NCBI GenBank assembly: GCA_026388185.1
Contig: JAPLKG010000011.1
Span: 372,001 to 436,000 of the forward strand
DNA from: Candidatus Eisenbacteria bacterium
GTDB lineage: Bacteria; Eisenbacteria; RBG-16-71-46; JAFGJU01
Direction of reading: 5' to 3'
Length of the DNA: 64,000 nt
The position numbers and the translations under genes are program-made. Below, piece by piece: positions 1,219 through 26,741 of the stretch; position 1 is the first letter of the stretch, and the number at the start of each line of letters is the position of its first letter. Under the pieces are notes generated by a model. The model made no database searches and was not told where the DNA came from. It worked only from the letters and a program-made list of their open reading frames with translations.

Positions 1219-1239
1219 CCCAACCAGGCTGGAACTAGA

Positions 1240-2403: not shown

Positions 2404-2457
2404 CCGTGTCCTTTACCTGGACTCACACGTTGCCGCGACTAGATTGCCGAGGTGATC

Positions 2458-6144: not shown

Positions 6145-6896
6145 GGGAGAAGCTGAGCGTGATAATCCCGACCTTCAATGAGGCGCACAATATTGCCGCT
6201 TGTTTGGATTCTGTTCTTTGGGCCGACGAGGTGATCGTGGTTGATTCTTTCAGCACGGATTCCACGGCGCAGATTTGTAAGAACTACGGCGTGAGGATAT
6301 TCGACCACGAGTACGTGAATTCCGCGTCTCAGAAGAATTGGGTTTTGCCCCAGGTGTCGCACACGTGGGTGCTGATTGTTGACGCCGACGAGAGAGTGAC
6401 GGAGCGCCTGCGCGACGAGATTCTGGGATTGCTGGAGGGCGGACCGGGATGCGACGGGTACTGGATAAGAAGGCGAAACTGCTTCATGGGAAGGGAAATC
6501 AGGCATTGCGGATGGGAGCGAGACAAAGTCCTGAGATTCTTCGACAGAACGAAGGGCCGCTATGAGGAAAAACACGTCCACGCGGAGATCGCACTCCGGG
6601 GCCGGGCGGGTTTTCTCGGAGCGCACCTGCTTCACGACAGTTACAGAGATTTTTCGGCCTATCTCACGAAGCTCGACAGGTACAGCGACTGGGGAGCCCA
6701 GGACGCCGCAAAGGGTGGGCGAGGTCGAGTGGTGGAGAAGCTTCTATTGAGACCTCCCGCCAGATTCGTGAGAATGTACGTATTTCGACTCGGGTTCTTG
6801 GACGGCATCCAGGGTTTCATGCTCTGCTCGCTGGCGGCCGTCAGTGTCTTCATGAAGTATGCGAAACTCTGGAAACTCACGCGGGGACGTCATTGA
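6141..6896 (+). CDS. Glycosyltransferase family 2 (WaaE/KdtX-like)
   Basis: GT-A fold glycosyltransferase, 251 residues. It begins REKLSVIIPTFNEAHNIAACL, then ADEVIVVDSFSTDST and the metal-binding VDADERVT (DxD-type). The block GWERDKVLRFFDRTKGRYEE and a hydrophobic C-terminal segment are as in WaaE-type beta-1,4-glucosyltransferases of the lipopolysaccharide core. GTG 6141 is chosen: it overlaps the previous stop (GTGA) and follows a GGGAGGGGGG ribosome site. The longer frame from 6105 would overlap the upstream gene by 40 nt without a site of its own. The sugar transferred is not known. Confidence 0.88.
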   Translation: MREKLSVIIPTFNEAHNIAACLDSVLWADEVIVVDSFSTDSTAQICKNYGVRIFDHEYVNSASQKNWVLPQVSHTWVLIVDADERVTERLRDEILGLLEGGPGCDGYWIRRRNCFMGREIRHCGWERDKVLRFFDRTKGRYEEKHVHAEIALRGRAGFLGAHLLHDSYRDFSAYLTKLDRYSDWGAQDAAKGGRGRVVEKLLLRPPARFVRMYVFRLGFLDGIQGFMLCSLAAVSVFMKYAKLWKLTRGRH

Positions 6897-7981
6897 TGCG
6901 GGTTCTCTTCGTCGACAGCGGACGTTCATGGCGAGGCGGGCAATACCAGGTCCTGAACCTCGGAACGGAGCTTCATAAGAGAGGCCACGAAGTCCTGCTC
7001 GTGTGTCAGAGGAAGAGCCCCCTTCAGCTCAAGTGGAGAGAACGGGGCCTTCTCGGTGAAGCCACGCGCATAAGGAGTGACCTGGACGTGAAGTCGTGGT
7101 TCCGCTTGGCTGGGATCCTTCGAGCGTTCGAACCTGCCGTCGTCCATGCGCACACGGGTCACTCGCACGCGGTGGCGTTGGGGGCGAGCTTCATTCACGA
7201 CGTCAACGCGCTGGTGGTGACGAGAAGGGTCGCCAGTCCCATAAGGAGAACTTTTCTTAACAGGATGAAGTACTCGCGGTTCGTGACACGTTTTGTGGCG
7301 ATCTCGTCCTCCGTCGCCAAGACGCTCGAGGACGCAGGCGTCTCTCCGGAGAGAATAAGCGTGATTCCAAGCAGCGTGAGGATCGAGACGAGTGAAGGAG
7401 AGGAGTCGCGTCTTGAGACGCGCTCGAAACTCGGCCTATCCGAAGAGGACTTCGTCGTACTGAACGTGGGGCGTCTCTCCGCGGAGAAGAGACAGGAGAC
7501 TGTTCTGGAGGTGGCGGCAGTTGCCTCCGAGAAGGTAGCGAGGGCCAAGTTCATCGTCGTGGGTGAAGGTCGTCTCCGCGGTCGACTCGAAAGGCGCGCG
7601 AGAGAACTTGGGGTGGAGGAGCAGGTGAGATTCCTGGGATTCAGAGAAGACGTCCCCAGGCTGATGAGAATTGCGGACGTGTTTCTTTTTCCGTCGGTAT
7701 CCGAGGGGTTGGGCACGTCTGTTCTGGAGGCCATGGCTGCGGGTGTCCCTGTTGTTGCATCTCGTACCGGCGGAATCGTCGAAATAGTCGAGGACGGTGC
7801 CACCGGGTTTCTTGCGGAGCCCGACGACGTGGATTCCATGGCGGAAGCCGTCGTCCGGTTGGCCGGAGAACCGGAGCTTTCCGGCGCGATGAGCGCCAGG
7901 GCCCGCGTCGTGGCAAAGGATCACTCGTTTGCGCGTTCCGGCGAATCGCACGAGAAGCTCTATCACGAGCTCGCGGGCTAG
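6896..7981 (+). CDS. Glycosyltransferase family 4 (GT-B)
   Basis: Retaining GT-B glycosyltransferase, 361 residues. N-terminal lobe starts MRVLFVDSGRSWRGGQYQVL with the glycine-rich acceptor loop. The C-terminal lobe has LNVGRLSAEKRQETVLEVAA, VGEGRLRGRLERRARELG, and the donor E-x7-E motif in PSVSEGLGTSVLEAMAAGVP. ATG 6896 overlaps the GT2 stop by one base (TGATG). Last member of the inserted lipopolysaccharide-core block. Acceptor and donor are unknown. Confidence 0.9.
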   Translation: MRVLFVDSGRSWRGGQYQVLNLGTELHKRGHEVLLVCQRKSPLQLKWRERGLLGEATRIRSDLDVKSWFRLAGILRAFEPAVVHAHTGHSHAVALGASFIHDVNALVVTRRVASPIRRTFLNRMKYSRFVTRFVAISSSVAKTLEDAGVSPERISVIPSSVRIETSEGEESRLETRSKLGLSEEDFVVLNVGRLSAEKRQETVLEVAAVASEKVARAKFIVVGEGRLRGRLERRARELGVEEQVRFLGFREDVPRLMRIADVFLFPSVSEGLGTSVLEAMAAGVPVVASRTGGIVEIVEDGATGFLAEPDDVDSMAEAVVRLAGEPELSGAMSARARVVAKDHSFARSGESHEKLYHELAG

Positions 7982-8032
7982 ATCGACAGCTCTTCCGGCG
8001 CCGCGATCGGCGGCCGCTCGTGGTTCCGATGC

Positions 8033-8061
8033 TTGACTGACGGGGACAATGGGATTAAAGT
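8033..8061 (+). promoter_or_regulatory. Sigma-70-type promoter of rseP
   Basis: TTGACT at 8033-8038 and TAAAGT at 8056-8061 are separated by 17 bp. It lies in the only sizeable gap of the first 11 kb, with about 43 nt from the expected transcription start to the rseP ATG. The apparent upstream TTG start codon at 8033 is actually the -35 box. Confidence 0.55.
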
Positions 8062-8110
8062 AACCGATGAGGGAGGCGGGCGTTCTTATGTTATCCAGAA
8101 GGGGAAGCAG

Positions 8111-9517
8111 ATGTTGACGATTTTCGCCGGCGCACTTGTATTGGGTGTTCTCATGTTTGTGCATGAGTTCGGTCATTTCGCAAGCGCCAAGGCGCTGGGC
8201 GTGCGAGTTCTGAAGTTTTCGCTGGGTTTCGGACCCGAACTCGTCGGATTCTCTCTGCGAGGGACGCGCTATGTCATCGCCGCCCTACCGGTGGGGGGAT
8301 TTGTGAAGATGGCGGGTGAGAGTCCGGAGGCTCCCGAGAGGAGTGGGGCGCCGTGGGAGTTTTACTCGAAGCCGTGGTGGGCGCGCGTGATAATCGCCGC
8401 TTCCGGTCCGGCCATGAACCTTTTCTTTGCCTTTCTTGCGTGCGGCGCCATGTACCTCGTGGGCATCAGATTCCTGGACTTTGACAGCGTTGTCGGTCGC
8501 GTGGAACCGAGTTCCGTGGCCACTCAATACGGGTTTGCGGACGGCGACAGAGTGGTCGAGGTGAACGGTGTGCGGGTACGTACCTGGAGCGACTTCCTGG
8601 GGAAGGTACAGAAGGCGAACGACGGTTCCGCCGTCACCATAGTTGTGCAGAGAGAAGTCAAACCGGGACAGAACGTGCGAGTGAAAATCCCGGTGAAACC
8701 GCAGGACAGGGGCAAACTCCTCAGCGAACTGAGTCCTCCATCGAGCCCTCCGATCATCGGCTCGGTGAGCATCGGTCTTCCGGCGTACGAACGCGGTCTC
8801 AAGGTGGGCGATCGCATAGTGTCCGTGGACGGGACAGAGGTGACGAGCTGGGAACAATTGGCCGTCCTCATTCACGAAAGGCCCGACAGGGAGGTCTCGC
8901 TTGTCGTGGAACGAGCAGGAAGACAATTCCGGCGGACCGTGACGCCTGCGAGCCAGCAGATAGAGGGCCAGGGTGCGATAGGCTTGATAGGAATCTCGCC
9001 GACCGGCACGACTTACGGGATTGTCAGGGCAGGCGGTGTTCGAGTCGTCGCGTTGGCCGCTCGAGGCACTGCCGAGATGTTGGCTCAGACCTACTCGGGT
9101 CTTTTCAAGCTTGTGCTGAGGCCACGACAGTTGGGCAAGAGCATCGCCGGTCCCGTGACGATAATACAGATGTCCGGTGACCAGGCGCGTAGAGGACTTG
9201 GAAACCTTCTCTACTTCATAGCGTTTGTCAGCATTGCTCTTGTCGTCGTAAACCTGCTTCCAATTCCAATCATGGACGGGGGTCACGTAGTCTTCTGTGT
9301 AATAGAAGGAATCAGGGGAAAGGCCCTGAGCATGTCAAAGCAAATCGCGTTTCAAAGGATCGGAATCGCGATCGTAGGCACGCTCATTGTGTTTGCCTTT
9401 TGGGTAGACTTCGCCAGAATCGTTCAAAGGGGAAGGGCAACCTTGGGAACGCCGATTGAGCAGAAAGGTGGAAGCCCTGGTGAACGTGACACAGCAGGGG
9501 CGGTTTCGTCTGAATAG
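8111..9517 (+). CDS. rseP: Site-2 intramembrane zinc protease RseP
   Basis: M50 family metalloprotease of the inner membrane; in model species it cuts anti-sigma factors and clears signal peptides. The first membrane segment carries the HEFGH zinc motif shortly after the start (FVHEFGHFASAKALGV). Two PDZ domains follow: one with GFADGDRVVEVNGV and one with GLKVGDRIVSVDGTEV. The last region contains the third zinc ligand in NLLPIPIMDGGHVVF. ATG 8111 is chosen because upstream TTG 8033 is a -35 box and the HExxH segment normally sits within about 25 residues of the start. Its 3' end overlaps the next gene by about 38 nt. Confidence 0.94.
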   Translation: MLTIFAGALVLGVLMFVHEFGHFASAKALGVRVLKFSLGFGPELVGFSLRGTRYVIAALPVGGFVKMAGESPEAPERSGAPWEFYSKPWWARVIIAASGPAMNLFFAFLACGAMYLVGIRFLDFDSVVGRVEPSSVATQYGFADGDRVVEVNGVRVRTWSDFLGKVQKANDGSAVTIVVQREVKPGQNVRVKIPVKPQDRGKLLSELSPPSSPPIIGSVSIGLPAYERGLKVGDRIVSVDGTEVTSWEQLAVLIHERPDREVSLVVERAGRQFRRTVTPASQQIEGQGAIGLIGISPTGTTYGIVRAGGVRVVALAARGTAEMLAQTYSGLFKLVLRPRQLGKSIAGPVTIIQMSGDQARRGLGNLLYFIAFVSIALVVVNLLPIPIMDGGHVVFCVIEGIRGKALSMSKQIAFQRIGIAIVGTLIVFAFWVDFARIVQRGRATLGTPIEQKGGSPGERDTAGAVSSE

Positions 9518-11384
9518 AAATCTCACCTCCCTGGTAGTTCTCTGCATGCTTCTCCTCGCGCCGGCCGCCTCCTTTTGTGCCGACGTCTTCAAACCCGTCT
9601 ACGTGTCAGAGATAGAATTCGAAGGCAATCGAGTCTTCTCTGATTCGAAACTGAAGAAAGTCATGAAAACAAGGGAGCGCTCGATTCTGAGGCCCTTCAG
9701 AGAGAATGCGTTCAGAAAGGACTTTCTCCAGACCGACATCGAGTCAATAATCGGATTGTACAGCAGACACGGTTATCTCAAGACGAAGGTCGATTCGCAA
9801 AGCGTCGAGAGAATCAAGAAGGGCAGGGCCGTCTCGATTCTTCTGTGGATATCCGAAGGGCCGAGGACGATGGTCGCGGGCGTGCGAATCGAGGGAGCGT
9901 CAGCTCTGCGCGAACAGAAACTTACCAAGGGACTGCGTCTCAAGAAGGGAGTGCCGTTCGATCCGACGGCCCTCGAGACCGATAAGCTCAAGATCCTCGA
10001 AAGATACGCGGAGGCCGGCTACATATATGCGACCGTACTTGACAACACGGTGTTCGAGGGAAACCTGGCCAGCGTATTCTACATCGTGAGGGAAGGAATC
10101 CAGGTAAGAACGGGCAACATTGTGGTTGAGGGGAACAAGGCCACGGCGGAGCGGCTTGTCAGAAGAGAGGTGACGCTCAAGAGGGGCGACGTCTTGAGGC
10201 GCTCGGAACTGATCAAGACGCAGCAGTACATCTACGACTCCGAGCTATATTCCGACGTGCAGATATCGACCGTCAACGTGGACACCATGCCGCCGGTGGC
10301 GGATCTGCTGATTCTTGTCAAGGAACGCAAGCTTGGGTGGGTCGGAGGTGGTATCGGTTACGGGTCCAGCGACCAGCTGAAGGTTTTTAGTGACTGGGGA
10401 CACAGGAATCTCTTCGGCAGTGGAAAGAGGCTCTTCACGTCCGCCAGCTTTGCTTTTGGAAGGAGACTATTCGAACAGGGAGAGGCCGTTCTGGATGCAT
10501 CGCGGTTTGACGTTGGTATTGTGGAACCGTGGCTTTTCCACACCAGGACCGCGGGACAGGCCGTGCTTTACAGAGAGTACAAGAGAGAGGTTTCCTTCAG
10601 TCAGGAGTTCACTGGTTTCACCTTCACGGTGAAGAGGAACATTTCTTCTGTCACGAAGGCCTTCCTCAGCTACGACAACAGATGGGTTCACACCACTGAT
10701 CCGACTGCAATCAGGAGGGAATACGTTACACGAAGCCTTTATCTGTCAGGCGTGAGGGACAGCAGGGACGACGTGTTCGACCCGGGTACGGGCTCGTTGG
10801 AAGAGGCGTCATGGAAGGTGTCGGGTGGAGTCCTGGGAGGCAACTACAATTTCCACAGGGTTTCTGCCGCCGCGAGCCGGTACTCACCGGTGAGAGGCAA
10901 GATACTGGCAGTGCGGGTCAAGGCCGGCTTCGCCGAGCCTTTCGGGGCGAGGCAAGGTGCCAGTCCGTTGGATAGGATTCCTTTCGAAGAGAGATTCAGA
11001 ACCGGCGGTTCCACTTCGATAAGAGGATACGTGGAGGATGACGAACTTGGACCCAGGGATTCCGCCGGGGACGTGGTGGGAGGAAGGGTCCTCCTGTTGA
11101 CCAATGTGGAGGTACGATTCCCACTGTTCTGGAGGCTCTCCGGCGCTCTTTTTCTTGACGGAGGTAACGTCTGGAGGAATCCTTCCGACATCAAGCTAAC
11201 TAATTTTGATCCCGGACGGACGTCGACGGAGGATTCGGACTACAGGTACTCTTTCGGCGGCGGCATTAGAGTTAGGACGCCGGTGGGTCCGATAAGAGTA
11301 GACTACGGTAGAAAGTTGAGACTTTCGTCTCGTGACGGCGACGACAGGGGGCAGTTTCACATCAGCCTCGGCCAGGCTTTCTGA
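9480..11384 (+). CDS. Omp85 outer-membrane assembly protein (BamA/TamA type)
   Basis: Outer-membrane beta-barrel insertase of the Omp85 family. After a signal peptide (hydrophobic LTSLVVLCMLLLAPAASFCA, cut before DVFKP) come about three POTRA units (VYVSEIEFEGNRVFS; MVAGVRIEGASALRE; RTGNIVVEGNKATAER). The barrel follows, with the loop-6 motif RFRTGGSTSIRGY and a C-terminal aromatic ending (SLGQAF). Canonical BamA has five POTRA domains and about 800 residues. This product has about 634 and three, as in TamA, and tamB follows directly. Yet position after rseP is the usual bamA place. BamA versus TamA is therefore undecided. GTG 9480 has an AGGTGG site upstream; TTG 9456 is the alternative. Confidence 0.88.
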   Translation: MNVTQQGRFRLNRNLTSLVVLCMLLLAPAASFCADVFKPVYVSEIEFEGNRVFSDSKLKKVMKTRERSILRPFRENAFRKDFLQTDIESIIGLYSRHGYLKTKVDSQSVERIKKGRAVSILLWISEGPRTMVAGVRIEGASALREQKLTKGLRLKKGVPFDPTALETDKLKILERYAEAGYIYATVLDNTVFEGNLASVFYIVREGIQVRTGNIVVEGNKATAERLVRREVTLKRGDVLRRSELIKTQQYIYDSELYSDVQISTVNVDTMPPVADLLILVKERKLGWVGGGIGYGSSDQLKVFSDWGHRNLFGSGKRLFTSASFAFGRRLFEQGEAVLDASRFDVGIVEPWLFHTRTAGQAVLYREYKREVSFSQEFTGFTFTVKRNISSVTKAFLSYDNRWVHTTDPTAIRREYVTRSLYLSGVRDSRDDVFDPGTGSLEEASWKVSGGVLGGNYNFHRVSAAASRYSPVRGKILAVRVKAGFAEPFGARQGASPLDRIPFEERFRTGGSTSIRGYVEDDELGPRDSAGDVVGGRVLLLTNVEVRFPLFWRLSGALFLDGGNVWRNPSDIKLTNFDPGRTSTEDSDYRYSFGGGIRVRTPVGPIRVDYGRKLRLSSRDGDDRGQFHISLGQAF

Positions 11385-11425: not shown

Positions 11426-14400
11426 ATGCGGCTGAGAGGTCTCAAGATAGCGGGAGTGGTTCTTGTATCCGCGGTTGCGGTTGTGGCAGTTGCTGTTGTG
11501 CTGCTCTGGCAGACGGATCGCGCCGCGATTAACACAAGGCTTGCGAAGCTCGCGCAGGAATTCCTGATAGCGAACGATTCTACGAGAATCGAAATCTCGA
11601 GCATCTCCGGGAATGCTGTGGGCTCTGTGACCCTGCACGACGTGAGTCTCTTCGTCAGGGACGGCAAGGATTGGAGAAGCGTGTTGACGGCACGCAAGAT
11701 CAAATTGGGCTACAGCCTGTGGGAACTCGCACGGAGAAGATTCGTACTGAATCAGGTGGAGATTGAAGAGCCCGTTTGTTCGCTCACCAAGGGAGCGCGT
11801 GGAACGTATCTGTGGCCGCGCTTTGGAAAGGGTGGGAAGGGAAAGGGGACGAAATTCGTAATCGGCAGCTTGGTAATAGAGCGCGGGGAATTCAGGATAG
11901 GTAGGCGCGGAGAGAAGGGGCTCTTTGACGACATTTCGATGAGGAGCTCGCTGACGAGCGGCCCCGACGGGATCGCCCTGAAGGGGCTGGAGGTCAGCTT
12001 TGCCGCTTCAACCTGGAAGTACACGGTGGAAAGCTGCAGTGGAGACCTGCTCTTCCGCGAAGGCAGGATGTGGTTGCAGAGTCTGGACGTGCGCACCGCA
12101 GGGTCGAGCTACAACGTGGACGGCTTCATCGGTCTCGGGCACCCGATGGACGTCGAGATTAAGGTTCTCGTAGACACGCTTTCGATTGTCGAGTTGAAAG
12201 GCATGAAGACACTCGCGTTTCTTCCCGGCGAAGGGAAAGTGTCGGGAAGCGCGACTTTCTCGAGAAAAGGAGGGGGACCGACGAGGATTACCTCTCTCCT
12301 ATCCGGAACGTACGGGACGCATGTCATAGACACGCTGCAATCAGTTACCACGGCGAAAAACGGCAAATGGGAAAACCAATTCCGGATGGAGTCTCAGGGA
12401 AGTGTGATAGAAGGCACGTTCAACGCGGGCCCCGGGACTCTGCAGGAATGTGCTGTAGATTTCGTGAGCTTTGACCCGAGGGCCTGGCCCGAGATCTTCA
12501 CGGAAGCCAGGATCCCGGAGGGTTCCCTCAACGGGGCCTTCAGATTCTCGGGAAATTCGCTCGTTTCTCCCCAGAGAAAGGGAGAGATTCAAGTGGCACT
12601 CGACGGCGGGAGCTACGCCGGGCTGTCATTTCTTGAGGGGAAGGGGGAGGGCAGCTTCGACGGCGAAGGAAGTCTCGTTTTCTCGAGCATCGATTTCCGC
12701 GGGGCCGGCTACAACGTTACCGCGTTCGGGACGGTGGGGCCGAAGGCCACGATTGATGCTGCGTTCAGAGCTTCAGTGGAGAAACTGGGTGAGTTTGCTC
12801 CACTGAGGGGCAAGTTCGACGTCGAGAGCGAACTGACGGTTTCAGGAAAGCTGCACGGCACCGGGGAGCGGTTGACGATTGAGACAGATCTGAGCGGCGA
12901 GCTCCTTCGCACGTCGCCATCGACTGTGTCTGGCGTTCTCAGGGACGGCCGGGTGGAAGGGGAGCTCTGGCCGCTTCTTTCTCTGAGTGCGAAGGCGGTT
13001 CTGAGTCCGGGGGAAGTGAGAGGTTCGGGGTTTGATTCGCTGACGGTGGAAACTCTGATTGAGAAGCCTCGAGACGGGAGCCGCCGTGCGGAGGTCGCTA
13101 AGGACAACGGTGAAGGATGGTGCTCGCCGGTGGTGGTCGTTAGCGGAAACGCCCGGGCCGTACGAGGTGACACCGTCATCACGGCGGAGGCGACTTTGGA
13201 TTGCTGCGAGAGCGGAGTCCAAGTCAGGGTCGAGAATCTTGTGGCGAGTCTGGGGCAATCGGTCTGGCGGAATGAAGGAACCGTGCATCTCGGGTGGCAC
13301 CGGGGGACCATGGAAGTGGCGGACCTCGTGCTCTTTTCGGGAGAGAGTCGCATCGAGCTTGCAGGTTCAACCGAGCCCGCAAAGAAGAGGGCCGCAGGGA
13401 GGCTGACCGTGGTCTCGCTGGACGTGCGGGGCGTCGCCGGCAAGTTTGTGCCCGCGGCCGGCAAGATGGACGCAGACGTGACGTTCGAGCAGACGGACAG
13501 TGGGTCCTCTTTGGACGGTCGGGTTGACTGGTCGGACGCCAGCTTCGGGGAAAGAACCTTTGACAGACTGTCCCTTTCGGCGTCGGTGAGCAACAACGAG
13601 ATTCACCTGAAACAGGTGGAGGTCGTTAAGGCGCAGGGGAAGATCACGGCGTCGGGAGAGCTTCACTTACCCATCCACTTTGGAGAATTCATCGACTCCT
13701 TGAGGTCGAGGCGCTCGGTTCCGAGGGGTGTTCAGGCAAACCTTGACGTGGTGACGGCGGGATTGAGTCTTTCCGAATTCTCTCAGTGGCATCCTGCCCT
13801 GGCATCGCTGAGCGGCATCGTGGACGCGCGGATCAGGATAGATGGGTTTCTAGAGAATCCGCGGATGACCATCAGTTCAGACGCCAAGGACTTCCGCATT
13901 AGAAAATACCAGGTTGCGGGCTTGGAACTGAGAGCGACACTGGCGGACGGCGTGTGTAACATCTCCCGCCTCGGCGTGATGGAAGGGAATGCGAAGGGAG
14001 AGGCCCAGGGCTTCTTCCCCGTAGCGTTGAACCTGGGCACGGGTCACCTGAGCTTTCCGGATGGCGCCGTTGACGTGAGCGTCAAGCTGTCGGAGAGCGA
14101 TTTGTCGGTTATTTCGCTTTTCGTGAAGCAGATTGCGTCCGCGTCGGGGCTGACCAAGGGCGAGGCTCGTATCAGCGGCACGTTGAGGAATCCCACGCTC
14201 AAAGGCGGCTTCGAGATCACGAATGCGACTCTCAGGCTGGTTGGGAGAGAGGAAGTACTCGAGAATGTCAATGCTCAGGTTTCCTTGAACGAGAGGGCGA
14301 TCGAACTCGTAAGCTTCACCGCGACTCAGGGAGAAGAGGGCAGGTTGGAGGGAAGCGGCCGCATACCCTTGGGCAAGACCGAAGGGGCCGGGTATAGCTT

Positions 14401-15352
14401 CGCGATCAAGGGGAAGAAAGTCACGTTCGGCGACCCGGAGGATATCGCTCTCAAGTTTGATTGTGACCTCGTGATTTCGGCCGTCGAAGTGCGGGACCGG
14501 GGCACGTATCCGAAGATCACCGGAAAGATTGACGTGAAGCAGGGGATCATCGCGAGGGAGTTCCAGAGCGTCCAGGGTCCGCAGGAAGAGCAGCGGTGGC
14601 TCTGCGACGTCCGGGTGGAAGTCGTCAACAATCTGTGGCTCAAGAACATCAACACCGAGATAGAACTCGCCGGATCGGTAACGGCAAGAAAGGACATGTC
14701 CGGGCTCATTCTCCTCGGGTCTCTCACAATCTTGAGGGGAAAGTACTACGTTTTCGATAATGAGTTTACGATCACCTCGGGCACGCTGGAATTCAAGGAC
14801 GTGGGGCGAATAGATCCTGAAATGAACATCAAGGCCGAGACCAGTGCCTCGGGAAGGATCGTTTACCTTACCCTGACGGGGAAGCTGAGCGAACCCACCA
14901 TTGTGCTGGCTTCGGACGATTCCAATCTATCACAGACCGACATTCTGCGTCTTCTCACCGTGGGGAAGTACGCCACAACGGAGTCGGGGCAGACCGGCGA
15001 TACTGGGCTGATGCCGGGCGTGACAGGTTCCGTGGGCAACTACTTCCTCAGGCAGGTTGAAAGAAGACTGGCGCGGGAACTCAAGTGGGTCGACTCCATC
15101 GAGCTCGGGGGCGACCTCGAGGGAACGAGCGCGATGAGCGAACTGCGATGGGGGCTTGGCAAGTACATCACGCCGGAGATATACCTGCGCTACTCACAAG
15201 GGCTCACCAAGATGTCTGGGAGAGACGTCTCCGTCGAGTACAGGCTGAGCAGTCTTCTGTTTCTGAGAGGTGGAGTCAGCAGCCGAGATAGATTTGCAGG
15301 CAGGGAGAGAGACGAGTACAATCTAGACCTGAGGCTCAAGTACGAGTACTAG
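11426..15352 (+). CDS. tamB: TamB-like translocation and assembly module protein
   Basis: A 1308-residue AsmA-superfamily protein. One N-terminal membrane anchor (about residues 9-28) is followed by a long, beta-rich, repetitive periplasmic region and the C-terminal TamB domain. That domain includes GSLTILRGKYYVFDNEFTI, the DPEMNIKAETSASGR stretch, and a final barrel-like LRWGLGKYITPEIYLRYSQG segment ending in YEY. TamB-type proteins span the periplasm as hydrophobic grooves, help Omp85 proteins insert barrels and, in other work, take part in phospholipid transport. The Omp85 gene 41 nt upstream is the obvious partner. Confidence 0.92.
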   Translation: MRLRGLKIAGVVLVSAVAVVAVAVVLLWQTDRAAINTRLAKLAQEFLIANDSTRIEISSISGNAVGSVTLHDVSLFVRDGKDWRSVLTARKIKLGYSLWELARRRFVLNQVEIEEPVCSLTKGARGTYLWPRFGKGGKGKGTKFVIGSLVIERGEFRIGRRGEKGLFDDISMRSSLTSGPDGIALKGLEVSFAASTWKYTVESCSGDLLFREGRMWLQSLDVRTAGSSYNVDGFIGLGHPMDVEIKVLVDTLSIVELKGMKTLAFLPGEGKVSGSATFSRKGGGPTRITSLLSGTYGTHVIDTLQSVTTAKNGKWENQFRMESQGSVIEGTFNAGPGTLQECAVDFVSFDPRAWPEIFTEARIPEGSLNGAFRFSGNSLVSPQRKGEIQVALDGGSYAGLSFLEGKGEGSFDGEGSLVFSSIDFRGAGYNVTAFGTVGPKATIDAAFRASVEKLGEFAPLRGKFDVESELTVSGKLHGTGERLTIETDLSGELLRTSPSTVSGVLRDGRVEGELWPLLSLSAKAVLSPGEVRGSGFDSLTVETLIEKPRDGSRRAEVAKDNGEGWCSPVVVVSGNARAVRGDTVITAEATLDCCESGVQVRVENLVASLGQSVWRNEGTVHLGWHRGTMEVADLVLFSGESRIELAGSTEPAKKRAAGRLTVVSLDVRGVAGKFVPAAGKMDADVTFEQTDSGSSLDGRVDWSDASFGERTFDRLSLSASVSNNEIHLKQVEVVKAQGKITASGELHLPIHFGEFIDSLRSRRSVPRGVQANLDVVTAGLSLSEFSQWHPALASLSGIVDARIRIDGFLENPRMTISSDAKDFRIRKYQVAGLELRATLADGVCNISRLGVMEGNAKGEAQGFFPVALNLGTGHLSFPDGAVDVSVKLSESDLSVISLFVKQIASASGLTKGEARISGTLRNPTLKGGFEITNATLRLVGREEVLENVNAQVSLNERAIELVSFTATQGEEGRLEGSGRIPLGKTEGAGYSFAIKGKKVTFGDPEDIALKFDCDLVISAVEVRDRGTYPKITGKIDVKQGIIAREFQSVQGPQEEQRWLCDVRVEVVNNLWLKNINTEIELAGSVTARKDMSGLILLGSLTILRGKYYVFDNEFTITSGTLEFKDVGRIDPEMNIKAETSASGRIVYLTLTGKLSEPTIVLASDDSNLSQTDILRLLTVGKYATTESGQTGDTGLMPGVTGSVGNYFLRQVERRLARELKWVDSIELGGDLEGTSAMSELRWGLGKYITPEIYLRYSQGLTKMSGRDVSVEYRLSSLLFLRGGVSSRDRFAGRERDEYNLDLRLKYEY

Positions 15353-15409: not shown

Positions 15410-18400
15410 ATGAGTTTTGGCAAAGTGTACAAGTTGACGTGGGCGATTCTGGGCATCGTGATTCTCGCGGCTCACTGTCTGGCCGGCGAGGCAAGCGCGC
15501 AAACCTTTGGGAAGAACAAGGTCCAGTACACGCAGTTTCAATGGCGAGTGGCGTCCTCCAAGAACTTCGATGTCTACTTCTACACGGGCGAAGACACGTT
15601 GGCCACCATCGTTCTGGACCTCGCCGAGCAGGCCGTGAGCAAACTCTCGAATGACATGGGCCATCGTCTTCACAAAAAAGTACCGATAATCATTTACGAG
15701 TCCCACTACGACTTCGAGCAGACAAATGTGGTAACGGAACTCATAGAGGAGGGCGTCGGAGGCTTCACGGAGCTTTTCAAGAACCGAGTGGTGATCCCGT
15801 TCACGGGTTCGTACGAGGACTTGAGGCACGTGGTCGTACACGAGCTCACCCACGCCTTCATGTTTGACATGATGTACACGGGAATCTTCGATTCGATTCT
15901 GAGCGCCCAGTATCTCTACCAGATACCGCTGTGGTTTTCGGAAGGTCTTGCTGAATATGAATCGTTGGGGTGGGACGAAGAAGCGGACATGGTGATGAGG
16001 GACGCGGCAGTCTCAGGCTACGCCGTGCATCTTGACATGCTGAGCGGGGGATATCTTGTCTACAAACAGGGTCAGTCCGCCATGAGCTTTCTTGCCAGGC
16101 GCTACGGGAAGGAGAAGTTGCGGGAGATCGTCGGAGGTCTTAGGACAAATAGAGACTTGGAGAATGCGTTCCAGAGGAGTCTCGGGATGAGCGAGCGCAA
16201 GTTCAGCGAAGCGTGGATGGAGTCGCTGCGCAAGCAATACTGGCCGGAGGTGGCGCTTCGAGACAATCCCGAGACATTCGGAAGAAGAATAACGGACCAC
16301 AGCGCCGACGGTTCCTTCCTCAACCACAGCCCGGCGGTGTCGCCGAAAGGAGACAGACTCGTTTTTCTCTCCGACCGGGCGGGCGCCATGGACATTGTGC
16401 TTGCCTCGGCGATAGACGGGAAGATCATCCGCAGGCTCGCGCGGGGCGAGAAATCGATGCGTTTCGAGGTAATTCCTTCCTTCAGGAATTCACTCGCCTG
16501 GTCTCCTGACGAGAAGAAGATTGCGTTCATAGCAAAGAGCGGTGAGGGGGACGTGCTCTATCTCCTGGACGTCAACTCCGGGCGGATTTCAAAACGGTTT
16601 AAACTGAAACTGAACGAGGCGGCTTACCCGAGCTGGTCGCCCGAGGGGGACAAAATCGCCCTCACGGGACTGATGGAGGGGAAGGCCGACCTCTATTTGC
16701 TGGACGTTCGAACCGGCGAATTGGAGAGATTGACGGAGGACCTCTACGACGACGTCGAGGCCAACTGGTCGCGCGACGGAAAGCTGATAGCCTTTGCCTC
16801 GGACAGACGCCTTCCTTTTGCCCTCGGCGCGGCCGCGGAGAAGGGCGGGATCGGTACTTATGCCATTTACACAATTGACCCGGTCACGCGACAAATAAGG
16901 AGCGCGATAGACACCGGAGGGAACGACAGGAGTCCGGCCTGGTCGCCCGACGGATCCGAGATAATCTTTACCTCAAGCCCTGACGGAGTCAGCAATCTCT
17001 TTGCTTTTGATTTCAAGGATTCATCCCTGGTACAGCTTACCGACGTTCTGGGAGGGGTATTCTCTCCCAACTGGTCCAAGAGTGACAGGCTTGCGTTCTC
17101 CCTGTTCTCCGACGCGGGATGGGACATTTATGTCGCCAAGGAGCCTCTGTCGCTGAAGGCCGTCATGGATGAGCTTGTCAAGGAAGGGAAGGCGCGGCGC
17201 ATCGTGGCCGGTTCCGATACATCCAAGGCCTTCGTCGCTGCGACTCAGGCAGACACGTCTGCCGCCTCTTTTGCGGGGGCTGGAGTGGACACGTCGACGG
17301 TCTCCGTTGTCGCTGCTCAACGTGACACATCTGGGGTTTCTGTGACTGCGACCCTGCCGGAAACGTCACTTGCGCTTCTACCCACTGCCCTCAGCGTAGC
17401 CACGCCCCCGAACGCGCTGCTGGCGCGAGTGGACACCCTCGTCTCGAACGCTGATTCCTCCGGAACCGTGGTTCCGGGGAGCGTTGGCGTGGCAAAAGCC
17501 CGACCGTACAGGGTTAAGTTTTCGCCGGATTGGGTGACGGGTGGCTTCCAGTACAGCTCTGCCTACGGCCTCGGAGGCAGCACTCAGATTTCACTCAGCG
17601 ACTTTCTCGGTAATCACAGAATCTACGTCGCCTCCGACTTCTTCTCGTCCGTGGAGGAAACTGACATCCTGGCAATCTACTACTATTTGCCGAGGCGGTT
17701 GGACCTGGGCGTGGGCGGGTTTCACTACAAGAATTACTACTATTCCAATACGACCACCCTCGGTGAGGAGTTCTCGGAGGAGAAGTATTTTTCCGAAAGA
17801 AACTACGGGTTCATGTTTCTTGGAAGCTATCCGTTCGGAAAATTCAACAGGGTGGAAGTGGATTTGACACAACTCACTGTTGAGAGAGAATTCTACGAAT
17901 ATGACGAATACACTGGAGCGTTCTACGCCGCGGGGACGAAGACCAAGCACGTTCTTTCGCCCGGCATCACCTTCGTCGGCGACACGGTTCAGTGGGGCGC
18001 GTTCGGGCCCGTGGCCGGATCGAGATGGGCCGTCTCATATTCGCACGCGCTCAAGCTGTCTGACGAAAGCATGGATTTCCACACCGCCTGGGTGGACCTT
18101 CGGAAGTACTTTAGAGTGGCTCCAGGGTATTCCTTCGCCTTCCGGCTCGTCGGAGCCGCGAGCGATGGTGGCGACGCGCAACGTTTCTTCGCGGGCGGGC
18201 CGTATACATTGCGCGGCTACGACGATTTTCAATTCAGGGGGACCAGACTCGTTTTCCTGAACAGCGAGTTTAGATTCCCGTTCATTGACAGAGTCGGATT
18301 CGTGTGGCCCCTTCCGATCGGGCTGAGGAACATCGAAGGTGTGTTGTTCTTCGACGTCGGAGCCGCGTGGAGCGACGACGAAAGCTTCAAGCCGTTCACG

Positions 18401-18568
18401 CGGATCCACGGATTCCACATGGATCCAACGTACGGGGGTGCCTGCCTGGGCACCGGCATAAGAACCAACCTCTCTTTCATCATACTCAAATTGGACTTTG
18501 CATGGCGAAGTGACTTGAACGAGGTCGCCGGCTACCGAACGCACGTCTCCATCGGCGGGGATTTCTGA
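15410..18568 (+). CDS. Metallopeptidase / TolB-like propeller / outer-membrane barrel fusion protein
   Basis: A 1052-residue secreted protein with three parts. Residues 1-31 look like a signal peptide. Residues about 40-260 form a gluzincin-like peptidase: HELTH at 144-148 and the likely third zinc ligand Glu178 in WFSEGLAEYES. About 300-590 hold six TolB/PD40-type blades with repeated W/SP-x-G-x-x-I/L-x-F units (AWSPDEKKIAF, SWSPEGDKIAL, AWSPDGSEIIF). A DTS-rich low-complexity linker covers about 600-690. About 700-1052 is an Omp85-like barrel with FFAGGPYTLRGYDDFQFRG and FLNSEFRFPF. It has no POTRA domain. ATG follows GAGGTGGGG. Function is unknown; the zinc motif predicts protease activity at or near the outer membrane. 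Confidence 0.85.
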   Translation: MSFGKVYKLTWAILGIVILAAHCLAGEASAQTFGKNKVQYTQFQWRVASSKNFDVYFYTGEDTLATIVLDLAEQAVSKLSNDMGHRLHKKVPIIIYESHYDFEQTNVVTELIEEGVGGFTELFKNRVVIPFTGSYEDLRHVVVHELTHAFMFDMMYTGIFDSILSAQYLYQIPLWFSEGLAEYESLGWDEEADMVMRDAAVSGYAVHLDMLSGGYLVYKQGQSAMSFLARRYGKEKLREIVGGLRTNRDLENAFQRSLGMSERKFSEAWMESLRKQYWPEVALRDNPETFGRRITDHSADGSFLNHSPAVSPKGDRLVFLSDRAGAMDIVLASAIDGKIIRRLARGEKSMRFEVIPSFRNSLAWSPDEKKIAFIAKSGEGDVLYLLDVNSGRISKRFKLKLNEAAYPSWSPEGDKIALTGLMEGKADLYLLDVRTGELERLTEDLYDDVEANWSRDGKLIAFASDRRLPFALGAAAEKGGIGTYAIYTIDPVTRQIRSAIDTGGNDRSPAWSPDGSEIIFTSSPDGVSNLFAFDFKDSSLVQLTDVLGGVFSPNWSKSDRLAFSLFSDAGWDIYVAKEPLSLKAVMDELVKEGKARRIVAGSDTSKAFVAATQADTSAASFAGAGVDTSTVSVVAAQRDTSGVSVTATLPETSLALLPTALSVATPPNALLARVDTLVSNADSSGTVVPGSVGVAKARPYRVKFSPDWVTGGFQYSSAYGLGGSTQISLSDFLGNHRIYVASDFFSSVEETDILAIYYYLPRRLDLGVGGFHYKNYYYSNTTTLGEEFSEEKYFSERNYGFMFLGSYPFGKFNRVEVDLTQLTVEREFYEYDEYTGAFYAAGTKTKHVLSPGITFVGDTVQWGAFGPVAGSRWAVSYSHALKLSDESMDFHTAWVDLRKYFRVAPGYSFAFRLVGAASDGGDAQRFFAGGPYTLRGYDDFQFRGTRLVFLNSEFRFPFIDRVGFVWPLPIGLRNIEGVLFFDVGAAWSDDESFKPFTRIHGFHMDPTYGGACLGTGIRTNLSFIILKLDFAWRSDLNEVAGYRTHVSIGGDF

Positions 18569-18571
18569 TAG

Positions 18572-20728
18572 ATGGAGGCCGAGCTGAACCCCGAACAGCG
18601 AGAGGCCGTCTCCTACGAATGCGGTCCCTTGCTTGTTCTGGCAGGCGCAGGCAGCGGGAAGACGCGCGTCATCGCGTATCGCATCGCCCACCTGGTCAAG
18701 CAGCGCGGTGTGCGGCCTGACGAGATACTTGCAATTACTTTCACGAGGAAGGCCGCCGCGGAGATGAGACGGCGCATCGAGGCGCTGTTGAGCTTGCGCG
18801 TCGTAGGGATGTGGATAGGCACGTTTCACTCCGTCTGCGCCCGCGTCTTGCGCGAGCAGGGGACAAAACTGGGATACGGGGCGAATTTCTCAATCTACGA
18901 CGAGGATGATCAGAGAAGTCTCGTCAAGGAGGTCATCGAAGAGCTCGAAGTGTCAGACCGCGAGTTTCCTCCCGGCAGGGTGCTCCAGAAGATAAGCTCG
19001 CTCAAGTCGGAACTCGTCGGTCCCGATGAGATGTCGAGACTCAGCATGTCTCATTATGACAAGATCATTGCGCGCATCTACGAGGCCTACCAGAAGGCCC
19101 TCGTGGACAACAACGCCATGGATTTCGACGATCTCCTGGTGAACACGGTGAGGCTCTTCTCGGAGTTTCCTTCGGTGAGAGATGGTTACGCTCGGAGATT
19201 CAAGCACGTGCTCGTTGACGAATATCAGGACACGAATCTCGCCCAGTACAGGATCGTTGCGGAGCTTCGTCGCGAGAACCACAATCTGTGCGTGGTCGGG
19301 GACGACGACCAGTCCATCTATGGCTGGAGAGGGGCGAACATACGAAACATCCTGGAGTTTGAGGACAACTTCCCAGAGGCAAGAGTGATCAGGATGGAGC
19401 AGAACTACAGATCGACCGGGCTCATTCTGGAGGCCGCCAACAACGTCATCAAGTGTAACGTCGGGCGTAAGGGCAAGACACTCAGAACGGACAACGAATA
19501 CGGCGAAAAGATCTCGCTTCTTCTTTTCCAGAACGAGGAGGAAGAGGCCGAGGCGGTGGCCCACGAGATATCGGCAGAGCGGATGACGAACGGAACGTCG
19601 CTCTCGGAGATGGCCGTCCTTTACAGGACCAACGCGCAATCGCGCACGCTCGAAATCGCTCTGAGACACGCCGGGATAAGCTATCAGCTTGTGGGAGCGA
19701 CCTCCTTCTACGAGAGGAAGGAGATAAAGGACATTCTGGCCTACCTGAAATTGTGTGTGAATCCGCGGGACGAGGTGAGTTTGAGGCGGATCCTGAACGT
19801 TCCCCCGAGGCGAATAGGCCAGGGAGCGATTGCGAGGCTCACCGACGCTGCCTCGAGGCGCGGGATGTCTCTGTCCGATGCGCTCAGAATCGCCCGCGAA
19901 ATCGAGGGCATGCCGCCGGCCGCGATCAAGGGGGTCGAGGGGTTTGTTTCCGTGATGGACGAATTCGCGACGCGCAAGAACGAGAGTATGGATACGTTGA
20001 TCCGGAATCTCATCGAAAGAGTAGGTTACAGGCAGTATCTTCAGAGCGCGAGCACGAACGTGGAGGACAGACTCGAGAACGTCGAAGAGCTGATCGCGTC
20101 GGCGAAGCTGTTTGCGGAGGAGAACCCGGCCGGCGAGTCCGTTTCTGGGAGTGGCGAGGTGCGTGAGGGCGTGCCGCAGGAGGATCGTGAAGGGTCGCTG
20201 CTTGGCGGTTTCCTGAACGACGTCGCGTTGGTCTCACAGATCGACACCTGGCGACCGGAGGAAGAGAAGGTCACGTTGATGACCGCGCACAATGCTAAGG
20301 GTCTCGAGTTCGGATGCGTCTTTATCACCGGATTAGAGGAAGGGCTCTTTCCTCACTCGGCCTCGATGGACAGCAGGGAGGAAATCGAGGAGGAAAGAAG
20401 GCTCTTTTACGTCGCACTCACGAGGGCGAAGCGGCGCGCGTTCCTGACTGCCGCAGCCAGGCGGAGGCGGTTCGACAGCCGGGGAGAGACGGCTCTCTCG
20501 AGGTTCGTGCACGAGATTCCGGAAAGCCTCGTGGCCGCGAAGGAACTCTGGGAGGTGCGGCGGGACAGCACGCTCGTGGGACGGCAGGTTTTTCATGAGG
20601 AGTTTGGCAGAGGTGTGGTCATCGGTCAGGACGGGCACGGTGAGAACGCCAAGGTGACCGTGCGTTTCGGTGGAAACGTGGTGAAGAAGATCGTGGCGAG
20701 ATACATGCAGTTGGAGGGCGGTGAATGA
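18572..20728 (+). CDS. pcrA: PcrA/UvrD-type superfamily 1 DNA helicase
   Basis: ATP-dependent 3'-5' helicase for repair and replication-fork clearing, 718 residues. Walker A AGAGSGKT at residues 24-31, Walker B in LVDEYQDTN, motif III DDQSIYGWRGA, motif IV EQNYRSTG, and the late TAHNAKGLEF and FYVALTRAKRR motifs are all present. The C-terminal tail ends in a Tudor-like segment (VFHEEFGRGVVIGQDG) seen in PcrA, which in other species contacts RNA polymerase. ATG starts 3 nt after the preceding stop. UvrD is the alternative name; tail and length favour PcrA. Confidence 0.93.
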   Translation: MEAELNPEQREAVSYECGPLLVLAGAGSGKTRVIAYRIAHLVKQRGVRPDEILAITFTRKAAAEMRRRIEALLSLRVVGMWIGTFHSVCARVLREQGTKLGYGANFSIYDEDDQRSLVKEVIEELEVSDREFPPGRVLQKISSLKSELVGPDEMSRLSMSHYDKIIARIYEAYQKALVDNNAMDFDDLLVNTVRLFSEFPSVRDGYARRFKHVLVDEYQDTNLAQYRIVAELRRENHNLCVVGDDDQSIYGWRGANIRNILEFEDNFPEARVIRMEQNYRSTGLILEAANNVIKCNVGRKGKTLRTDNEYGEKISLLLFQNEEEEAEAVAHEISAERMTNGTSLSEMAVLYRTNAQSRTLEIALRHAGISYQLVGATSFYERKEIKDILAYLKLCVNPRDEVSLRRILNVPPRRIGQGAIARLTDAASRRGMSLSDALRIAREIEGMPPAAIKGVEGFVSVMDEFATRKNESMDTLIRNLIERVGYRQYLQSASTNVEDRLENVEELIASAKLFAEENPAGESVSGSGEVREGVPQEDREGSLLGGFLNDVALVSQIDTWRPEEEKVTLMTAHNAKGLEFGCVFITGLEEGLFPHSASMDSREEIEEERRLFYVALTRAKRRAFLTAAARRRRFDSRGETALSRFVHEIPESLVAAKELWEVRRDSTLVGRQVFHEEFGRGVVIGQDGHGENAKVTVRFGGNVVKKIVARYMQLEGGE

Positions 20729-24495: not shown

Positions 24496-24984
24496 TTGTT
24501 CACGATACTTCTGGTGTGCACGGGAAACACTTGTCGAAGTCCCATGGCCGCCGGTCTACTTGAACGGCTTATCCCGAGAACGTTGGCGAAGAGTGTCAGG
24601 ATAGAGTCGGCAGGGGTCGACGCGCAGAACGGGGGTCCGGCGTCAAGGAACGCGATAGAGGTCAGTAAGAGGAGAGGAATCGACGTCTCGGGTCACTTTT
24701 CGAGAAGGCTGACGCGAGAGATCGTGGAGGCCGCCGACCTCATTCTTGTCATGCAGAAGATGCACTTCGACGAGGTGCGAGAGATCTGTCCCTCGCGGGC
24801 CGAGCACACATTGCTTCTCACGGAGCTGCATAAAGACCCGAGCGCGGATGCGAAGGAGATAGCCGACCCCTGCGGGGGTTCGGAGGAAGTGTATGAGCGG
24901 TGCTTCAGTCAGATACAGACGAGTCTCGAGAAGGGCATGAAGTTTCTGCTCGAGCTTGTCAAGTCCAAGGAGGGTTCGCAGTGA
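24496..24984 (+). CDS. ywlE: Low-molecular-weight protein phosphatase, YwlE-like
   Basis: LMW-PTP fold phosphatase of 162 residues. The phosphate loop is VCTGNTCRSPMAAGLL (CxxxxxRS). The Thr in the P-loop (GNT, as in Bacillus YwlE, rather than the bulkier residue of tyrosine phosphatases) is the feature tied to phosphoarginine preference. The late Asp loop reads ADPCGGSEEVYERC, close to YwlE's DPFGGSxDxY. A protein-arginine kinase is not seen here, so tyrosine or arginine specificity stays open. TTG start after GAGGAGACGAGG. Confidence 0.88.
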   Translation: MFTILLVCTGNTCRSPMAAGLLERLIPRTLAKSVRIESAGVDAQNGGPASRNAIEVSKRRGIDVSGHFSRRLTREIVEAADLILVMQKMHFDEVREICPSRAEHTLLLTELHKDPSADAKEIADPCGGSEEVYERCFSQIQTSLEKGMKFLLELVKSKEGSQ

Positions 24985-26741
24985 CGAGTGAGAAGGAAGT
25001 CGGGGGCCGAACGTCGACGAAGATTGCTCTGGGCTCTGACCATGCGGGTTTCGAACTGAAGAACCATCTGGTGAAGACCCTCAGGAATGAGGGTCGCGAC
25101 GTGGAAGATTTCGGCACGTTCTCTTTGGAGTCGGTGGACTATCCTGACTACGGGTTGCGCGTTGCAGCGGCCGTAGCGGACGGGCGATTTCAAAGGGGAA
25201 TACTCGTTTGTCATTCGGGGATAGGCATGTCCATCGCCGCAAACAAGGTCAGGGGAGTCAGGGCCGCTCTGTGCAGGGACGCCGAGTCCGCAAAGCTTTC
25301 GCGACTTCACAACGATTCCAACGTGCTTGTTCTGGGTGCAGGTTTTACGCAGCCTGGCGAGGCTGCGGAACTCGTGAGGATTTGGCTCGACACACCTTTC
25401 GAAGGCGGACGTCACGCCAGGCGCGTGGAGAAGATCTCGCGTTTCGAGGAGAAGATCGACGGGCCGTCTTCGCCGGACGGCGGACCCAGGCCGGTCTTCT
25501 GGTCCTATCACGGACAGACGGTCAAGCACGTTGACGCGGAAGTCTACGGACTCCTACAGCGAGAAACCAAGAGGCACAGCGAAACCTTGGACCTGGTCGC
25601 CTCTGAGAGCGTTGTCGATCCTGCCATCCTCGAGGCGATGGGCAGCATCTTTGCGTTGAAATACGCCGAAGGATACCCGGGCGACCGGCTGTATCCGGGC
25701 TGCGAGGTGATGGACGAGGCGGAGACGCTGGCCATCGAGAGAGCCAAACTCCTCTTTGGAGCCGACCACGTGAACGTGCAACCGTACTCGGGGACGCAAT
25801 CAAACATGGCGACCTACTTCGCAATCCTGAAGCCGGGGGACAAGATCGTCAGTATGAGAAGCGATCACGGAGGACACTCCACGCACGGAGGGAAGTCCAG
25901 CTTTTCGGGTGCGCTCTACAGGTCCTTCAGGTATGGCGTGAAGAAGACCACGGAACTTATTGATTATGAACAGGTTGAAGAACTGGCTAAGAAAGAGAAG
26001 CCGCGCCTCATAATCGCCGGCGGGAGCGCTTACTCGAGATTGATAGACTTCGCCAGGTTTCGCGCCATTGCAGACTCATGCGACGCCATGCTGATGGTGG
26101 ACATGGCTCATCTCGCCGGCCTCGTGGCGGCGGGGATTCACCCGAGCCCCATTCCTTTCGCGGACGTCGTCACGAGCACGACCCACAAGACGCTCCGGGG
26201 ACCCAGGGGTGGTCTCATACTCTGCAGGAGAGAACTGGCCGAGGCCATCGACAGGGCGGTGTTTCCGATAATGCAGGGTGGTCCGCTGATGCACGTGATA
26301 CTGGCCAAAGCGATTTGTTTTGGGCTTGCGCTCCAAAAAGAATTCAGAGAATTTCAACTGCAGGTGGTGCGCAACTCCAGGGCCCTTGCGGAGGAGATGA
26401 AGAAGCTGAGTTACAGAATCGTGTCCGACGGTACCGACAATCACCTCTTCGTCGTGGACACAACCGCGTCGGGCATTGACGGCTCCGTCGCTTGGAAGGA
26501 GCTCGAGAAGGCGGGTATACTCGTGAACAAATGCGCGGTTCCGTTTGAGGAGACTGACGCGTTCGGAGGTCTCCGAATGGGCACGCTGTCCTTGACATCC
26601 AGGGGGATGAAGGAAGCGGACATGGCCGAGGTTGCCGGCCTGATAGACGTCGGGCTCAAGAAGGGGTCAAGCGGCGCCGAAATTGCCGGCGTCAGAGCCG
26701 GTGTGAAACAGCTCTGCGGCCGTTTCAAGGTCTATCGTTAG
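24981..26741 (+). CDS. Ribose 5-phosphate isomerase B / serine hydroxymethyltransferase fusion
   Basis: One 586-residue reading frame carries two enzymes. Residues about 12-150 are RpiB: ALGSDHAGFELKNHL, the active-site Cys in ILVCHSGIGMSIAANKVRG (usual CGTG reads CHSG), and HNDSNVLVLGA. Residues about 165-586 are a divergent SHMT: KYAEGYPGDRLYPGCE, QPYSGTQSNMATYFA, VDMAHLAGLVAAG and the PLP lysine in TTHKTLRGPRGG. Several SHMT positions differ from the common form (ASES for ASEN, NKCAVPF for NKNTIPF, MGTLSLTSRG for IGTPALTTRG). GTG 24981 overlaps the previous stop and follows AAGGAGG by 8 nt. Separate adjacent rpiB and glyA genes are usual elsewhere. Confidence 0.92.
   Translation: MTSEKEVGGRTSTKIALGSDHAGFELKNHLVKTLRNEGRDVEDFGTFSLESVDYPDYGLRVAAAVADGRFQRGILVCHSGIGMSIAANKVRGVRAALCRDAESAKLSRLHNDSNVLVLGAGFTQPGEAAELVRIWLDTPFEGGRHARRVEKISRFEEKIDGPSSPDGGPRPVFWSYHGQTVKHVDAEVYGLLQRETKRHSETLDLVASESVVDPAILEAMGSIFALKYAEGYPGDRLYPGCEVMDEAETLAIERAKLLFGADHVNVQPYSGTQSNMATYFAILKPGDKIVSMRSDHGGHSTHGGKSSFSGALYRSFRYGVKKTTELIDYEQVEELAKKEKPRLIIAGGSAYSRLIDFARFRAIADSCDAMLMVDMAHLAGLVAAGIHPSPIPFADVVTSTTHKTLRGPRGGLILCRRELAEAIDRAVFPIMQGGPLMHVILAKAICFGLALQKEFREFQLQVVRNSRALAEEMKKLSYRIVSDGTDNHLFVVDTTASGIDGSVAWKELEKAGILVNKCAVPFEETDAFGGLRMGTLSLTSRGMKEADMAEVAGLIDVGLKKGSSGAEIAGVRAGVKQLCGRFKVYR

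Follow-up and report, generated by a model that had tools for sequence, protein, structure and literature searches.

We report that the window, the whole 64,000-nucleotide stretch of Candidatus Eisenbacteria DNA analysed here, encodes on its forward strand a 1052-residue protein that joins a zinc peptidase, a TolB-type β-propeller and an Omp85 barrel in one chain. The open reading frame runs from 15410 to 18568, as originally predicted, and its three-domain anatomy is well supported: domain search and structure prediction recover the peptidase, the propeller and the barrel, and Pfam domains, AlphaFold2 models and fold searches agree on the three-part architecture that the original prediction had claimed. 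Its function, including activity, membrane side and substrates, we infer: with about an even chance, the protein would act as an outer-membrane-anchored, periplasm-facing zinc peptidase in the turnover or quality control of outer-membrane proteins. The gene is organised as follows.

15410..18568, + strand: whole gene, 1052 residues (peptidase, TolB-type propeller, Omp85 barrel)
15410..15499, + strand: signal peptide, residues 1-30, expected cleavage near A30/Q31, read from sequence
15506..15529, + strand: conserved mature N-terminus FGKNKVQY, residues 33-40 (row conservation)
15506..16258, + strand: zinc peptidase domain, residues 33-283, with H144, E145, H148 and E178 (PF13485, conservation, fold)
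16268..17161, + strand: six-bladed TolB-type β-propeller, residues 287-584 (PD40, partial TIGR02800, TolB Z 28.2)
17183..17485, + strand: disordered, fast-evolving linker, residues 592-692 (pLDDT, dN; no POTRA fold)
17519..18565, + strand: Omp85 barrel, 16 strands, residues 704-1052, with LRGY at 934-937 and C-terminal F1052 (model, fold search)

The full-length AlphaFold2 model, built on a 62-row alignment, is confident (mean pLDDT 83.9, pTM 0.83) and predicts a helix at residues 7-25 within the signal peptide. On the whole protein, NCBIfam gives a partial TolB match and weak BamA and Omp85-family matches, each below its cut-off. Conservation was read from an alignment of 88 rows (the window's protein and 87 others, with at least three identical pairs); the named relatives are the best 80 of 517 confirmed stretches and were fetched with patterns that do not contain the HExxH site, and further alignments comprise 62 (A2), 64 (A3) and 60 (A4) rows. 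A30 is found in 84/88 rows and Q31 in 80/88, in a stretch overlapped by one retrieval pattern, and the strong conservation around FGxNK is partly due to that pattern, which contains AQxFGxNK.

An invariant zinc site in a gluzincin-type fold

Pfam Peptidase_MA_2 (PF13485) matches residues 72-273 with 52.5 bits (cut-off 32.4), and a search for the same family in 14 control genomes, one of them a Bacteroides, returned 0 matches. The HELTH...SEGLAEY zinc site noticed originally is intact: H144, E145, H148 and E178 are invariant in 88/88 aligned rows, and the loss of zinc residues in relatives, named beforehand as an outcome that would speak against the reading, was not seen in any of these rows. 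The HExxH site and the EGxA glutamate (E178) are also retained in 14/14 second paralogues examined, and FGxNK is carried by 13 of the 14, 12 of these having been retrieved without the AQxFGxNK pattern. E182 was considered as the third zinc ligand and rejected, as it is replaced by A in L079 and by V in L109 and L111, with E178 constant.

Modelled alone (pLDDT 86.4, pTM 0.85), the peptidase has M9 collagenases as its nearest folds (Z 17.9 over 230 residues at 3.8 Å), followed by M30 (Z 16.4) and M1 (Z about 15) peptidases, with 10-17% identity in the structural alignments, and its profile matches a collagenase by sequence (E 5e-4). We take all three families to be gluzincins, and the domain combines the HExxH motif and downstream Glu ligand of that group in a gluzincin-type fold. 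Around residues 29-48 and 99-118, block confidences are 42-73 and 62-66 in the isolated model and 79-94 and 84-87 in those blocks of the full model that lie nearest, the alignments differing between the two; the lower confidence of these stretches in the isolated domain may reflect contact with another domain.

Over the whole family, sequence is conserved more strongly in the peptidase than in the other two domains: mean identity to the window's protein is 47% there (87 rows), falling to 38% in the propeller (87 rows), 37% in the barrel (80 rows) and 12% in the linker (81 rows). This strong conservation argues that catalysis, not merely scaffolding, is under selection. Among the three closest orthologues, however, where dS is near or beyond saturation, the barrel dN is as low as that of the peptidase, a point against the quality-control reading.

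A six-bladed propeller and a disordered linker

Pfam PD40 scores 86.7 bits (cut-off 20.9), with only three PD40 stretches passing; despite this, the six blades claimed originally are upheld by VIA-align matches of the propeller to TolB (Z 28.2, 246 residues, 2.2 Å) and to the designed six-bladed Pizza6 (Z 23.7, 246/251 residues). With the full-length TolB model TIGR02800 the protein scores 137.2 bits, short of the 343.15-bit cut-off. With TolB as the closest fold to its propeller, the protein might serve as a TolB-like envelope tether, the propeller binding a Pal-like lipoprotein and the remainder anchoring or trimming, a role we hold to be very unlikely, given that Pfam reports no TolB N-terminal domain on the protein and that another ORF of the genome (G000:C8:376367, a 505-residue frame) encodes a propeller that resembles this one and is itself a putative TolB candidate.

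Between propeller and barrel, AlphaFold2 pLDDT falls below 50 at residues 592-594 and 599-692, and dN among the three closest orthologues is 0.81-0.93 in this linker and 0.15-0.29 in the domains. At a median length of 89.5 residues across members, the linker might conceivably pass through the barrel, and the M9, M30 and M1 families consist mainly of enzymes that are secreted, displayed on the surface or used in nutrition; both points weigh against a periplasm-facing quality-control peptidase. They recall a surface-displayed or secreted protease, with peptidase and propeller passed outside by the barrel for feeding or predation, a reading that draws on the collagenase-like fold and on the length of the disordered linker in most members. 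We nevertheless consider such export unlikely: linkers of only 21-23 residues occur in 3/86 members, the near-universality of the family in two phyla is unlike a patchy nutritional pattern, and the precedent of PlpD, in the accessible text of Hanson et al., is that of a periplasmic enzyme domain (PMC11116518).

A POTRA-less Omp85 barrel

AlphaFold2 predicts 16 C-terminal strands from residue 704 to 1048 and places LRGY in the loop that joins strand 11 to strand 12, the position in which Omp85 proteins carry this motif; in a Bacteroidota BamA, according to the accessible part of a structural study, LRGY lies in loop 6 (PMC12611786). Scanned by itself, the barrel segment matches Pfam Omp85 above threshold (PF01103; 32.3 bits, cut-off 24), a family that Pfam does not report when the full-length protein is scanned, and 42/60 aligned barrels, the window's among them, match it at E<=0.001. 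By VIA-align, residues 706-1052 superpose on BamA 8bnz (Z 24.0, 306 residues, 4.0 Å) and D. radiodurans BamA 8xnb (Z 23.1); the barrel profile matches 35 distinct PDB sequences at E<=0.001, almost every one of them bearing the name BamA or TamA, and reaches a probability of 97.8 when set against the TamA-like barrel of the neighbouring gene in a profile comparison. R935 is retained in 80/80 covering rows and the G of LRGY in 77/80, with a variable last position; R935, E953, R955 and D982 are invariant (62 rows), and the final residue is F in 72/79, Y in 4/79 and L in 3/79.

The 16-stranded barrel and the (V/L)RG(F/Y) loop 6 are those of the Omp85 superfamily, whereas the usual POTRA domains are lacking, with no Pfam POTRA match on the protein and a linker that is disordered in the model. 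The POTRA-less, LRGY-bearing Omp85 barrel of the original prediction is confirmed by the strands and the BamA fold match, and the contrary outcome, a C-terminal part that forms no membrane barrel, is contradicted by AlphaFold2 and by the BamA match at Z 24. Omp85 subfamilies without POTRA domains have already been described (PMC4104836, in the part accessible).

These features of assembly factors would also suit a membrane-protein assembly platform, in which a BamA-like barrel works with a BamB-like propeller, as Heinz and Lithgow envisaged, and proteolysis is a side activity. The joining of propeller and barrel does recall BamA-BamB (PMC4104836, as far as accessible), and in L109 and L111 the gene after the second paralogue encodes a BamB-like PQQ propeller. 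We judge such a platform possible though rather doubtful, as the peptidase is the best conserved domain over the family and its site is intact in 88/88 rows, POTRA domains are absent, and a BamA-type gene with five POTRA domains is already present in the genome, as are two more POTRA-Omp85 genes.

A lineage-specific link to TAM

The gene lies in a run on one strand, in the order rseP, three-POTRA Omp85 gene, tamB, three-part gene and uvrD-like gene, the last of which probably has no part in the function.

8033..9517, + strand: rseP-type site-2 protease, M50 with PDZ (Pfam)
9456..11384, + strand: TamA-like Omp85 gene with three POTRA domains (Pfam, NCBIfam)
11426..15352, + strand: tamB, the genome's sole PF04357 match (Pfam)
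18572..20728, + strand: UvrD/PcrA-type helicase (identity read from sequence)

Of the original description, a run following bamA/tamA and tamB, the order stands, and for the Omp85 gene TamA-like is the better reading. A five-POTRA gene of BamA type is found on another contig of the genome, with a Clp-type ATPase gene on one side and ompH/skp and lpxD on the other; the upstream Omp85 gene was therefore rejected as the main BamA, even though the NCBIfam BamA model scores it at 323 bits (cut-off 297), and its pairing with tamB is best read as TAM. Scans for terminator-like sites (14, with 12.7 expected) and promoter-like sites (7, with 3.4 expected) were uninformative.

Across the window's phylum, the end of tamB lies within about 0.3 kb upstream of the gene in 21/47 genomes, in four of eleven families (f1 3/3, f2 1/1, f11 1/1 and f8 16/20), with contig ends hiding some adjacencies (for example in G039 and G045). 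Among the named loci (best 80 of 517), 72 of which have more than 1 kb upstream, an iterated profile finds adjacent tamB at 14/80 and phmmer alone at 13; none of the 14 is titled KSB1, Zixibacteria, Bacteroidetes, Cloacimonadota or Gemmatimonadota, and at five of the 80 rseP is found upstream with no TamA or TamB match between. General tam linkage is thereby rejected. As to the spread of the architecture together with tamB, whose examination had been proposed at the outset, the link is real in the window's lineage but lineage-specific, and the operon is for that reason weak evidence of a shared pathway. Co-occurrence with TamB is uninformative, since TamB is itself near-ubiquitous (44/47 phylum genomes, 40/42 named genomes). 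Elsewhere, where scanning covered one or two members of each cluster, the recurrent neighbours include genes for a GWxTD-domain and a SPOR-domain protein, alongside metabolic genes.

Other parts of the window and of related loci are of separate interest. Positions 1-8000, between uppS/cdsA/dxr-like genes and rseP, hold by Pfam a PfkB-type sugar kinase and a glycosyltransferase-9 (heptosyltransferase), along with genes that read as nucleotidyltransferase and glycosyltransferases, suggesting a putative LPS-core cluster inside the rseP region. A 613-residue frame at 24900-26741 apparently joins an RpiB-like sugar-phosphate isomerase to a serine hydroxymethyltransferase. In L116:5893-11327, a third POTRA-Omp85 gene (608 residues) follows a 1189-residue protein without Pfam match, possibly as a TamA/TamB-like pair.

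Distribution, tree and paralogues

The family is present in 47/47 genomes of the window's phylum (E<=1e-40), including 26/26 that are at least 90% complete, in 98/101 genomes sampled from Gemmatimonadota (E<=1e-60) and in 134/198 genomes from the phylum to which an Ignavibacteria genome belongs, presumably Bacteroidota in GTDB; its absence from the other 64/198 at E<=1e-60 counts against the quality-control reading. Among the best 80 of 517, loci are titled Eisenbacteria, Zixibacteria, KSB1, Calditrichota, Cloacimonadota, WOR-3, Krumholzibacteriia and Fermentibacteria, among others, and a few, which may be misbinned, Actinomycetota (L031), Deferribacteres (L024) and Poribacteria (L057); most phyla carrying the family make up what we take to be the FCB group. 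A plasmid search was uninformative, its best match, in Salinibacter ruber, covering half of the query at 31% identity.

A quick tree, limited by its long branches and by unevenness of composition, recovers Gemmatimonadota, Zixibacteria, Cloacimonadota and WOR-3 as one branch apiece and divides Bacteroidota, Eisenbacteria (including paralogues), Calditrichota and Ignavibacteriota; it was built after removal of 13 named loci, the window's copy (L001), a duplicate (L114) and truncated copies. The window's nearest rows outside its own family are Eisenbacteria, and the tree follows the phyla in part. The family is old, widely retained around Bacteroidota and Gemmatimonadota, and apparently unstudied, and its retention together with the partly phylum-like tree suggests a housekeeping role in the envelope.

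The window's genome (G000) has a single copy, for which an assembly gap may be responsible, whereas a second copy of about 970-985 residues is found in G001 and G002, the two other members of its family. The second paralogue is shorter and has a related neighbour gene in 9/12 loci (L099-L113; for example L107:7652-9301 and L100:11406-13079). Of four such neighbours scanned with the Pfam NHL-repeat model, two pass the cut-off, one matches weakly and one has no match; that in L107 reads like a lipoprotein.

Proposed function

We propose that the signal peptide directs secretion and that the barrel inserts in the outer membrane and anchors the protein there, while the TolB-like propeller would serve as an adaptor or gate for substrates or partners and the gluzincin domain, as an endo- or exopeptidase, would cleave substrates on the periplasmic side, most likely outer-membrane proteins or lipoproteins during assembly. 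The N-terminal domains of Omp85 proteins generally lie in the periplasm. The PlpD enzyme domain likewise stays there, as stated in the accessible text of PMC11116518, and for both reasons we place peptidase and propeller in this compartment.

The outer-membrane quality-control role, which the original prediction had raised and which remains plausible, is our best single guess, about as probable as all other explanations together. Its case is built on the zinc site, intact in 88/88 rows and in 14/14 second paralogues, the higher mean identity of the peptidase (47% versus 38% for the propeller and 37% for the barrel), the confident full model with its gluzincin-type fold and barrel invariants, the wide retention and phylum-like part of the tree, the PlpD precedent (PMC11116518, as far as accessible), and rseP, tamA and tamB as neighbours in its lineage; against it stand the lineage-specific tam linkage and the metabolic or poorly known character of the neighbours scanned elsewhere. 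More speculatively, and in our view doubtful, the protein could be an ancestral, near-universal one-chain quality-control station of the FCB group, a proteolytic counterpart of BamA whose barrel engages unfolded outer-membrane proteins, whose propeller guides them and whose gluzincin destroys failures.

What draws attention here is a large outer-membrane protein, near-universal in two sampled phyla and present in about two-thirds of the genomes sampled from another, for which our searches found no function. An active, periplasm-facing protease would mean that an Omp85 scaffold was converted to membrane-anchored proteolysis and, if true, would offer a target for how non-Proteobacteria police outer-membrane assembly; the catalytic residues make the protease reading directly testable.

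Comparison with known systems

With BamA and TamA the protein has in common a 16-stranded barrel, the LRGY loop and sequence similarity in its C-terminal half, but it lacks the POTRA domains that mark BamA, the genome's five-POTRA BamA-type gene being a different one, and has the peptidase and propeller in addition. It shares fold and HExxH...E with M9 collagenases and M30 and M1 peptidases, none of which, to our knowledge, has an Omp85 barrel. As a zinc peptidase it would be the FCB-group functional counterpart of M48 proteases such as BepA, a likeness of role, not descent; BepA, YcaL and LoiP belong to a different peptidase family and, as far as we know, have no barrel of this kind. Those three M48 enzymes are zinc peptidases in outer-membrane quality control, according to a 2026 review (PMC13067283, in the part accessible). 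The accessible parts of the Bacteroidota BAM structure papers name no peptidase subunit of this kind (PMC12611786, PMC12578637), and those of a TAM review contain nothing on this gene (PMC11014939).

Closer parallels are found among fused Omp85 proteins. We take PF00149 to be a metallophosphoesterase family, and the label of a "metalloprotease" Omp85 group may therefore be a misnomer. That group is defined by PF00149 in section 10 of the 2014 classification, as far as its text was accessible (PMC4104836), and the metalloprotease, WD40-like and patatin-like groups are described as not well characterised in the accessible text of Hanson et al. 2024 (PMC11116518). Like this protein, PlpD of the patatin-Omp85 group has an enzyme domain fused ahead of the barrel; unlike it, PlpD is a phospholipase with POTRA and without a propeller (PMC11116518, same portion). 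The closest known system is the WD40-Omp85 subfamily of Heinz and Lithgow 2014, with a TolB-like propeller and a proposed BamA-BamB-like role (PMC4104836, in part), and the present protein shares its N-terminal TolB-like propeller joined to an Omp85 barrel without POTRA. The accessible main text of that paper contains no word beginning with "peptidase", no "metallopeptidase" and no PF13485, and regards the subfamilies outside BamA, TamA and Lipo as patchily distributed, probably through transfer (PMC4104836), in contrast to the near-universality in two phyla and the partly phylum-like tree found here. Our literature search, with subscription papers mostly and preprints wholly outside its coverage, found no paper on the three-part architecture. 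Compared with the 2014 main-text description, the three-part protein looks like the full form of WD40-Omp85, and the finding was partly anticipated by that classification; new, as far as we searched, are the peptidase with its invariant site, the two-phylum near-universality and the lineage-limited tam linkage.
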